From an uncultured Planctomycetales bacterium (GTDB lineage: Bacteria; Planctomycetota; Planctomycetia; Isosphaerales; Isosphaeraceae): a stretch of DNA of 56,616 bases. Position numbers and translations under genes: made by a program. Under the pieces are notes generated by a model. That model saw only the letters and a program-made list of their open reading frames with translations, did not search any database and was not told where the DNA came from. The stretch lies in NCBI GenBank assembly GCA_903926465.1, contig CAIYJE010000177.1:1-56616 (forward strand), written 5' to 3'. Of this stretch, positions 25,858 to 30,014 are shown in pieces; within the stretch, counting starts at the first letter, position 1; each line of letters opens with the position of its first letter.

Positions 25858-26262
25858 GACGGGGTATTCCTGTTAGCCCGACGCGTGAGCGAGGGATTCT
25901 TCGAGAATGTCTGTTGATCAAAGGTTGCGGCCCAAGCAAAGAGAAGCCCCAAGAGATCCACTCGCGAGAACGCTTCGGGCTCGTATCAGATAAGAATCCC
26001 TCGCTCACGCGTCGGGCTAATAGGGAAGCCGTTACCTTGGCCGAGCGCCCCCCAAAACCCCGACCCAGAATCCCTCGCTCACGCGGCGGGCTAATAGGGA
26101 AGCCGTTACCTTGGCCGAGCGTGCCTTAACCACGGCCCGGAATCCTTCGCTCACGCGTCGGGCTAATAGGGAGACCGTTACGTTGGCCAACCGCGTCGGG
26201 CTCTGATTTCCGGCCCCTTGCCCAGCAAAACCCCAGGAAACGCAACTTCAAAACGCACGCCT
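25858..26262. repeat. dispersed intergenic repeat, copy B, with three internal tandem units
   Basis: Matches the array at 2340-2600. Inside it, a unit of about 73 bases starting GAATCCCTCGCTCACGCG occurs three times in a row (starts 25994, 26068, 26140). An inverted partner of the core lies at about 25880-25905. The region 25568-26507 carries no convincing gene; frames through it are repeat translations. Confidence 0.88.
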
Positions 26263-27884: not shown

Positions 27885-27921
27885 ACGTCAATCAGACAGA
27901 CGCCTCTTTCAGCTGGCTTCT

Positions 27922-28036
27922 GGTCGGAACAGAGCCCAGAACGTCAGTGACGGGGCAGGCTTTGCTGGCTAGATTTAAACTGTGTTCAGATAGTTTTCCT
28001 GGTCGGAACAGAGCCCAGAACGTGAGTGACGGGGCA
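27922..28036 (+). repeat. two REP-like copies upstream of the RAYT gene
   Basis: GGTCGGAACAGAGCCCAGAA followed by CGT(C/G)AGTGACGGGGCA, at 27922-27957 and 28001-28036, same orientation, 79 bases apart. The inner part forms an imperfect bulged hairpin (GCCC...GGGC, CGT...ACG), as in REP elements. Further copies lie at 28653-28689 (same strand), 28817-28850 and 28882-28916 (opposite strand). Confidence 0.88.
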
Positions 28037-28141
28037 ACTTTCTGGACGGATCCCAATTGCGTCGGGTCTGTCTTTCTGATCGGATTGAATCTGCGATCGG
28101 GCAGTTTTGCTGTCTCTGGTTATTCTCTATCAGAGGGAGGC

Positions 28142-28678
28142 ATGTTCCAGTCACCGCTGGCTTATTTCTTAACTTTCTCGACATACGGCACTTGGTTACA
28201 CGGTCGAGAACCTGGTTCGGTCGATAAGTCGCACAACATTTTCGACACGCCCACTCTTCCGACAAACTCACGACGTGAACAAGTCATTCGATCCCAGATG
28301 CGTCAACCTGAGTACGTGCTTGATGAACCACGTCGACAATGTGTGCGGCTTGCGATTCAAGAGGTCGCTCATTATCGCGACTGGGCACTCCACGCTGCTC
28401 AGGTGCGAACCAATCATGCGCATATTGTGATCACCACACCCAGTCTGAAGCCGGTACCCGTCCTGATGGTTCTCAAAGCGTGGTCGAGTCGGCAACTCCG
28501 GCTGACGTTCAAGGAAGAGCCGAAGCGAGTTCGATGGACGCATGATGGCAGTACAGAATACCTTTGGGATGAAGCAGCACGGGCAAGAGCCTGCAAGTAT
28601 GTGGTTTATGAACAAGGCGAACCGATGGCCGTGTTTCCAACCGAACCCAATCCGGACCGAATACAGCCCGGAACGTGA
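28142..28678 (+). CDS. REP-associated tyrosine transposase (RAYT, IS200-like Y1)
   Basis: 178 residues from ATG 28142, with GGGAGG just upstream. Pattern of Y1/HUH transposases: AYFLTFSTYGTWLHG at the start, NHAHIVI as the HUH motif near residue 97, and a C-terminal helix ARACKYVVYEQG carrying the candidate tyrosine. RAYTs are domesticated transposases that spread or maintain REP sequences. Here two direct REP copies precede the gene, one overlaps its stop codon, and two inverted copies follow. Length is normal, so it may be active. Confidence 0.82.
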   Translation: MFQSPLAYFLTFSTYGTWLHGREPGSVDKSHNIFDTPTLPTNSRREQVIRSQMRQPEYVLDEPRRQCVRLAIQEVAHYRDWALHAAQVRTNHAHIVITTPSLKPVPVLMVLKAWSSRQLRLTFKEEPKRVRWTHDGSTEYLWDEAARARACKYVVYEQGEPMAVFPTEPNPDRIQPGT

Positions 28679-28916
28679 ACGTCGGGGCAATCTGGCTGCC
28701 TGACTGTTCAGACCTGCGAGATTGGGATCAGTCCAGAAGGATGCCCCGGCAATGAGACGCTGTTGAAACCAGAAAGATTACCCCAACGCAATTGGGATCA
28801 GACCAGCAAACGACGGCCCCGTCACTCACGTTCCGGGCTCTGTTCAGACCAGACGCCAGACAAAAGGCATACCACAAAGACTGCCCCGTCACTCACGTTC
28901 CGGGCTCTGTTCAGAG
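28653..28916. repeat. three REP-like copies downstream of the RAYT gene
   Basis: 28653-28689 is in the same orientation as the upstream pair and includes the transposase stop codon. 28817-28850 and 28882-28916 are inverted. The last one contains the stop codon of the hydrolase gene that ends at 28911. A weaker relative (CAATTGGGATCAGACC) occurs near 28788 and, inverted, near 28050. Confidence 0.85.
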
Positions 28917-30014
28917 CTCAGAATTTAGCAATTCATACGCCTGTTCCCGCATGGCGGGTGGGAAGTCATGCGGGCCGTCGGGATGCTCCAGGCGCAGGTG
29001 GTTTTCCTGGCCAAACAGCCGAAACACAGGCCGGGCCGCCTGCACAATTCTGTCCACGCTGGCGGCCTGGAAGTTACTGTCCTTGAGCGGCGCCACAATC
29101 AGCACGAACCGGGGCGCCAGGGCTCCAATCAGTTCTTGAAAGTCGAACGGGATCTCGGCCAGGCGGCCTCGATAGTCGGCCAGCCTGGGCATGTACCGGG
29201 TTTGGGTCCAGCCCTTCTCGGGTTGCCAAACGGCCTCGTTGCCCTGGTAATAGTCTAGAAACGAGTCCAGCCCGCAACTGGAGACCACCACCTTGAGCCG
29301 GTCATCAAACACGGCGGTGAACACGGCGTTATGGCCGCCCAGCGAGTGGCCGATCACGCCGTAGTTCCCATGCTTGACATAAGGAAGTGAGTCAAGCAGG
29401 TCCAGTCCGCGCAGGTTGTCCCACACCGCCTTCAGGGTGCCGCTTTGCCAGCCCAAAACCTTGATGTCTGGCTGATAGGCGGCCAGCAGGGGGTAGCTGG
29501 GCGCCAGCACCACAAAACCGCGCTCCACCAGTTCGTTGGCGTAGGCCGGGTAGGGGGTTCCGCCCAGTCCCACCAGCACGCCATGCCCCACCACGTCATC
29601 GGTGGGGTGCAGGGCCAGCACCGCCTTGGCCGGCGTATGGCCTGGTTCCAGTACCGCCTTGGGGACCAGCAGGTAGGCCGGCACCCGGCCGCCAGGCTCA
29701 GACTCATAAGAGATCAACCGGCGGAGGTAGGTACCGCAATCGATCTCGGACACAATCTTCAGGTCCAGGTCGCAACGCTTCTCTGGGCCGGGCAAGGGCC
29801 CCATCACCTGGTTCATCCCCTGAACAATCTCAGCGCGGCGGTGCTGCCAGTCGGCCATGGTGTGAACCGGCTGCGGTACATGGCCTGGCCCGTGGAAAAG
29901 CAGCAAGTTTTCACGCGGCAACCGCTCTTGCGCCTGGGTGGGCCCGGCCTGGAACCAGGCCAACAAAAACGCCAGTTCCACAAGGCAGGCGTGGCGGGCG
30001 AACCTGGCAATCAT
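28911..30014 (-). CDS. exported alpha/beta hydrolase (acetyl-esterase/dienelactone-hydrolase-like)
   Basis: 367 residues from ATG 30014; the frame upstream is not credible. Signal peptide to about residue 27 (AGPTQAQ). Hydrolase core: VPAYLLVPKAV, LALHPTDD, nucleophile elbow GHSLGG, and the late histidine in HPDGPHDFPP. This organisation is common in planctomycete exported esterases next to sugar-degradation genes; substrate unknown. The last codons and stop lie inside a REP copy, so the C-terminus may have been altered by repeat insertion. Confidence 0.8.
   Translation of the reverse strand: MIARFARHACLVELAFLLAWFQAGPTQAQERLPRENLLLFHGPGHVPQPVHTMADWQHRRAEIVQGMNQVMGPLPGPEKRCDLDLKIVSEIDCGTYLRRLISYESEPGGRVPAYLLVPKAVLEPGHTPAKAVLALHPTDDVVGHGVLVGLGGTPYPAYANELVERGFVVLAPSYPLLAAYQPDIKVLGWQSGTLKAVWDNLRGLDLLDSLPYVKHGNYGVIGHSLGGHNAVFTAVFDDRLKVVVSSCGLDSFLDYYQGNEAVWQPEKGWTQTRYMPRLADYRGRLAEIPFDFQELIGALAPRFVLIVAPLKDSNFQAASVDRIVQAARPVFRLFGQENHLRLEHPDGPHDFPPAMREQAYELLNSEL

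Follow-up and report, generated by a model that had tools for sequence, protein, structure and literature searches.

The RAYT gene and the repeats around it

The window, by which we mean the whole stretch of 56,616 nucleotides that was analysed (contig C177 of a 6.9-Mb genome made up of 207 contigs), carries a RAYT transposase gene of 178 aa at 28142..28678 on the + strand, an open reading frame preceded by a good Shine-Dalgarno sequence, GAGGGAGG. The product scores 26.5 bits against the Pfam profile Y1_Tnp, the cut-off of which lies at 23, and displays an NH-A-H motif, the pair W132-T133 and a YVVYEQ motif. The HUH histidines H92 and H94 as well as K112, W132, Y153 and Q158 are all kept, and H92, H94 and Y153 are conserved in 7/7 and in at least 90 % of 43 relatives. 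The catalytic residues thus support an intact enzyme, and in this respect the intact REP-RAYT unit proposed by the sequence-only reading stands. An AlphaFold2 model of the protein (pLDDT 85.6) matched the TnpA proteins of ISDra2 and IS608 and TnpAREP (4er8) in Foldseek with E values of 7.7e-5 to 1e-3, and VIA structure comparison with the same proteins gave Z values of 10–14, the nearest by Z being IS608/ISDra2 TnpA. Thg1 and ferredoxin-like folds follow in the VIA list at lower Z, which we take as a common fold only. A PDB sequence-profile search returned weak IS200 matches only, 4er8 being absent from them and recovered by the fold search. The score against the NCBIfam family REP_Tyr_transpos (NF047646) is 20.8 bits, far under the curated cut-off of 80, and 38 of the 43 relatives match this family weakly as well, with a best E value of 4.9e-8.

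Four clean REP copies surround the gene and all of them face inward, toward the RAYT. Upstream, on the + strand, lie copy 1 (foot CAGA 27930–27933, hairpin 27934–27956, GTCA loop, one A.C stem mismatch) and copy 2 (foot CAGA 28009–28012, hairpin 28013–28035, GTGA loop, the same A.C mismatch); downstream, on the − strand, lie copy 4 (foot CAGA 28839–28842, hairpin 28816–28838, built as CCCG-GA-AC-[GTGA]-GT-GA-CGGG) and copy 5 (foot CAGA 28906–28909, hairpin 28883–28905). A 20-mer of the repeat accordingly matches with at most two mismatches each at 27932–27951 and 28011–28030 (+) and at 28821–28840 and 28888–28907 (−), where shuffles of the window give an expectation of 0 matches by chance, and the two direct copies before and two inverted copies behind the transposase that had been described from the sequence are both borne out. 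The fifth copy in that description is a degenerate one on the gene strand (copy 3, 28666..28688), whose 20-mer at 28664–28683 carries four mismatches in 20 and whose foot is lost (TACA), so that the foot CAGA, rather than GTAG or GTGG, is present on four of the five copies. Besides their two REPs, both inverted-repeat flanks (left 27906..28078, right 28721..28915) contain a second element, GATCCCAATTGCG, at 28049–28061 and inverted at 28787–28799 as CGCAATTGGGATC, with a further partial copy at 28721–28729. The inverted flanks are about 58–160 bp long, non-REP sequence included, and a 40-nt extended repeat (28876–28915) is common to both right-hand copies. Predicted DNA folding of the hairpin is modest at −4.6 to −5.7 kcal/mol (z −1.6 to −2.3, nearest-neighbour energies), in models that credit tandem G.A and GNNA loops poorly.

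Two repeats had been read as containing stop codons and as having rewritten the ends of genes. The RAYT stop TGA (28676–28678) does lie inside the degenerate copy 3, whereas the stop TGA of the neighbouring alpha/beta hydrolase (28911..30014, − strand, weak GCE_fung/Peptidase_S9 match) lies at 28911–28913, 2 bp beyond the core of copy 5 and within the extended repeat. Stop codons supplied by REP ends are known for GTAG REPs (PMC3733652), and the insertion may have given the hydrolase its stop triplet. A rewritten hydrolase end is nevertheless not supported, and the result that had been named beforehand as refuting it was obtained: in REP-free orthologues of 63–76 % identity the ends (AYLLLEAELKK*, AYSLFDKVLRR*, AYGLFEAELK*, AYALFDMVLR*) agree with AYELLNSEL* in the window within about 1–2 residues; a few orthologues have longer, unalignable tails. 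By these alignments the insertion left the hydrolase protein essentially unaltered. In the RAYT (C-terminus ...MAVFPTEPNPDRIQPGT; that of its paralogue on contig C25 is MAVFPRSTE) the last ~5 codons (IQPGT*) and the stop are indeed encoded by the REP, yet a same-strand hairpin sits on the RAYT stop or at most 10 nt from it in the nearest relatives too (loci L067, L068, L069 and L072). Because these share the layout, a REP on the RAYT stop is better seen as a habit of the clade than as a local rewrite. Over all 57 scorable loci, the stop falls within 8 nt of a hairpin in 16.

Repeats and RAYTs in the genome and its relatives

The repeat is not confined to the locus, a finding that would have refuted the sequence-only reading. 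Genome-wide, the 20-mer is found at six places exactly and at 52 with up to three mismatches, the reversed-pattern control giving 0, and about 75 to 100 REP hairpins in all are scattered through the genome, many of them dispersed singly. The hairpin pattern GAGCCSSGARCGNNAGYGASSG occurs 73 times exactly, whereas the 44 further genomes of its GTDB family have 0–2 matches each. Several sub-types can be told apart, among them CCCGGAACGTNAGTGACGGG, which belongs with the window RAYT, as well as CGCGAACGGAAGTGAGCG and CGGGAGCGCAAGCGACCG.

A near-identical second copy of the window RAYT gene was not found in its own genome, where the next best copy has 57 % identity. A second intact RAYT lies on contig C25, flanked by inward-facing copies of its own variant; the REP types paired with the two enzymes are CCCGGAACGTGAGTGACGGG for the window RAYT and CGCGAACGTGAGTGAGCG for that on C25. 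The third, on contig C169 (L040:1655–2143), is decayed by an internal TGA and TAG; the REPs that flank it are degenerate and of a type of their own, close to CGGGAGCGCAAGCGACCG. These paralogues are mutually 54–57 % identical while their REPs are near-identical, and REPs outnumber genes by more than 20:1. In the tree the three RAYTs group together (support 100/97) inside a larger set of Planctomycetota sequences, and therefore a single ancestral gene has produced no fewer than two living pairs of gene and repeat as well as a dying one. The same genome also encodes a Y1 transposase of another subclass on contig C129 (552–890, L057; NHFH, YVERNP), which was ruled out as owner of the REPs by its YVERNP motif and by the lack of a flanking inverted repeat, and which served as negative control.

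Convergent or palindromic pairing of the copies, which had been put forward for checking, is not what prevails in this genome: neighbouring REPs within 300 bp have the same orientation in 23 cases versus five opposite ones, a BIME/REPIN organisation was not found, and the direct arrays have a period of 89–97 bp. Convergent pairs do occur in relatives: in G047 16 of the 19 close pairs listed are +/− at 37–38 bp, and most of the listed copies at short spacing in the genome that holds locus L074 converge, likewise 37–38 bp apart. A second motif, GAACACCAGGTT (palindromic GAAC-ACCAG-GTTC), has 59 exact genomic copies (control 0). Fifty-three of them have a REP no more than 250 bp away, and for 32 the distance to the start of a same-strand REP is fixed at 51–53 nt, whichever the REP sub-type; examples of the spacing are seen at L041:1600–2060 and L042:1280–1690 (− strand). 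The REPs that flank the window RAYT do not carry this motif.

Other repeats in this genome have the look of REPs. The families GAGCCGCGAACGGAAGTGAGCG and TTAGCCCGACGCGTGAGCGAGGG are REP-like and come without an identified RAYT. A different family, TTAGCCCGACGCGTGAGCGAGGGATTC, is present in the window at 2183–2509 and 25863–26193 as inverted and 72–74 bp direct copies; it fits a C-GNNA-G hairpin (CCC-GAC-GC-[GTGA]-GC-GA-GGG) and recurs at 29 genomic places with at most three mismatches (control 0), with no cognate RAYT seen. The contig start (1–331) carries a 151-nt direct repeat, 98 % identical and 180 bp apart.

Counting of three REP types in 15 genomes, with every reversed-pattern control at 0, relates the type of a repeat to the enzyme present. 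The type GAGCCCCTCGCG.. / GAGCCCCTCGCGNNAGCGAGGGG has 339, 40, 14 and 4 copies in the four genomes where it accompanies the RAYT, one stray copy elsewhere and 0 in the other ten. Some overlap exists for the other types: GAGCCGGAAGCGTNAGCGACGG has 265, 9 and 11 copies in its three genomes and three copies (one mismatch) in one other, and GAGCCGCGACCGTNAGGGAGCGG has 5–524 copies in eight genomes and 0 in that of the window. Repeats of the form GAGCCGCGACCG.. number hundreds in G045 and tens in G047, a type not recorded beside the RAYT seen there; as both genomes hold two REP types, each probably has a second RAYT.

A hairpin design across related loci

A contig scan yielded 80 related loci from Planctomycetota, Acidobacteriota, Sumerlaeota, Chloroflexota and a few other groups. 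Chance similarity of the flanks is ruled out by cross-locus, shuffle and distal-flank controls: in 69 % of 88 loci the flank-versus-flank inverted-repeat score lies above the 99th percentile of the cross-locus controls, and inward GNNA hairpins occur on both sides of 46 of 83 RAYT loci, whereas dinucleotide shuffles give 0.0 and flanks at a distance of 1–1.4 kb give 0/74. In the common design a foot is followed by a stem, a tandem G.A mismatch, two base pairs and a GNNA loop that a C-G pair closes; GA on the 5′ side usually faces GA on the 3′ side, with GAA/GA or a continuous stem sometimes in its place. The foot reads CNG[AT] at 29 of 38 related loci.

To guard against circularity, copies for a covariation analysis were chosen solely by the unpaired letters GA..CGNNAG..GA. 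The inner pair is Watson-Crick in 38 of 38 (G-C 19, C-G 17, A-T 2), compared with a mean of 17.4 and a maximum of 28 in partner shuffles, which ignore the kinship of the loci; outer pairs 1 and 2 each reach 32 Watson-Crick cases out of 38, where the shuffles yield at most 28 and 26, respectively, and both show C-G/G-C as well as G-C/C-G states. This non-circular covariation over 38 related loci supports the predicted hairpin. In one further genome (G027), a pair of class-3-like RAYTs (L059, L066) is flanked by common planctomycete repeats, AAGCTCGAAGCGCCAGCGAGTGAA, which read in frame as TSSKRQRVNS / PEAPAS. Their position suggests that these ubiquitous repeats may be the REPs of class-3-like RAYTs.

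Relation to known systems and interpretation

The system compares most closely with the class 3 TnpA_Y1 proteins of Quentin et al. 2018 (PMC6006769). Their hosts are Planctomycetes, Acidobacteria and Proteobacteria, the proteins of ~178 aa carry NHVH, W[TA] and YV[VI][AENY]EQ, and the hairpins are atypical with a CnGA foot; Solibacter usitatus has ~600 hairpin copies and three related class 3 genes. When first described, the class counted 24 known proteins only, with no experiments, and it is regarded as perhaps intermediate between IS and REPtron. The window RAYT has NHAH, WT and YVVYEQ, that on C25 and most relatives have NHVH, and the foot CAGA fits CnGA. The motifs and foot support assignment of the window system to the class 3 TnpA_Y1 REP/RAYTs and not to the GTAG type known from enterobacteria and pseudomonads. 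The class 3 REPtrons are alike in protein signature, length (~178 aa), phyla, multicopy CnGA-foot hairpins and three genes per genome, and unlike in that here direct ~90-bp REP arrays with a second motif occur and the host lineage is apparently new. A RAYT with cognate REPs, as first read from the sequence, is upheld by the Y1 enzyme, the flanking inverted REPs and the 52 genomic places, and is sharpened to this class; the family call was right as to kind and wrong as to type, the system not being of the GTAG type. E. coli TnpAREP with its GTAG REPs (PMC2817692, PMC8266576, 4er8) likewise combines a single-copy HUH/Y1 gene with inverted flanking REPs, the hairpins of which are imperfect, preceded on the 5′ side by a tetranucleotide foot and interrupted in the stem by a zone of mismatches, but the foot here is CAGA (CnGA), the hairpin is shorter and weaker, and the window protein is only 12–16 % identical to 4er8.

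We consider it highly probable that the locus is a REPtron, a single-copy class 3 HUH/Y1 gene bracketed by inward copies of the hairpin that it recognises, the REPs being mobilised in trans. An intact HUH motif and tyrosine, inverted flanking REPs, multicopy dispersed REPs and a gene that is not multicopy are all found. Against it count the weak predicted folding of the hairpin, the REP type of G045 and G047 that is not recorded beside their RAYT, the empty site looked for in relatives and not found, and the sequence around the hairpin, where the REPs next to the window RAYT have the accessory GATCCCAATTGCG and those elsewhere in the genome have AACACCAGGTT. E. coli TnpAREP cleaves single strands with its tyrosine, moves REPs in trans and recognises the mismatch zone and foot (PMC8266576). 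By analogy with its biochemistry and that of IS608, from which single-strand cleavage, a guiding foot and mobilisation in trans are inferred here, the protein would bind one REP strand while this is single-stranded, as on the lagging-strand template, and would read the CAGA foot together with the hairpin of stem, tandem G.A mismatch, 2 bp and GNNA tetraloop. Y153 would then cleave near the hairpin via a 5′ phosphotyrosine intermediate before the ends are rejoined. In this way the non-autonomous REPs would multiply and relocate in trans, with the RAYT gene keeping its place.

The locus could instead be an insertion sequence of IS200/IS605 type, whose terminal inverted repeats (TIRtron/IS) recur elsewhere as solo ends or MITEs. 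The inverted flanks that extend into non-REP sequence on both sides would suit such an element, as would the closeness by Z to IS608/ISDra2 TnpA and the perhaps intermediate position of class 3. IS608 and ISDra2 share the fold and catalytic residues, and TIRYTs/TIRtrons (PMC3733652), whose hosts include Acidobacteria and Rhodopirellula, combine a gene for a tyrosine transposase with long inverted repeats at the ends, some of which recur genome-wide. However, no gene copy is near-identical, no transposition of the unit is evident while the repeats multiply without the gene at more than 20:1, the flanks break up into a number of structured REPs with a direction, where an insertion sequence would have a single LE and a single RE, and the IS605 accessory gene is absent, which makes an insertion sequence quite improbable. 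A comparison of synteny revealed no empty site, the orthologues of the two flanking neighbours lying on different contigs in relatives. An ordinary tandem repeat or minisatellite unconnected with the transposase would agree with the dominance of 89–97 bp direct arrays in this genome. It can hardly be reconciled with two intact RAYTs each flanked by inward copies of its own variant, with the contrast of 46/83 to 0/74 between near and distal flanks over several phyla, or with the many singly dispersed copies, and we give it almost no credence.

Somewhat unlikely, albeit the strongest of these alternatives and one that does not exclude the REPtron, is that a host function such as transcription termination, mRNA 3′-end protection or nucleoid-protein binding has preserved the REPs, with a domesticated RAYT and a proliferation that belongs to the past. 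Copies do abut gene ends, with the RAYT stop inside one and the hydrolase stop 2 bp from another, the families GAGCCGCGAACGGAAGTGAGCG and TTAGCCCGACGCGTGAGCGAGGG lack an identified RAYT, and one RAYT is decayed; yet a conserved host signal would not be expected to be restricted to one lineage as these REP families are, with hardly a copy in the 44 other genomes of the family.

Going beyond the REPtron itself, we tentatively propose, as a picture that we hold possible rather than probable, that class-3 RAYTs of Planctomycetota, Acidobacteriota and neighbouring phyla share a single hairpin code, in which a CNG[AT] foot is followed by a stem, in some cases a tandem G.A mismatch, 2 bp and C-GNNA-G, and that the sequences of the stems change along with the enzyme. 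One ancestral RAYT would have given rise to three gene/REP pairs in one genome, the REPs of which now sit in a composite ~90-bp unit with AACACCAGGTT 51–53 nt downstream, which may act as the missing second end. The observation is sound, and the system is a typical representative of a group already known yet neglected, in which the cross-phylum hairpin design and the radiation into three pairs with composite 90-bp arrays may be new. The 89 related proteins collected, 46 of them with hairpins on both sides, provide a covariation-tested target design, and the matched enzyme/REP pairs of the window and C25 in one genome make class 3 recognition and the switching of specificity testable in vitro. 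Class 3 REPs may account for part of the conspicuous short repeats in planctomycete genomes.
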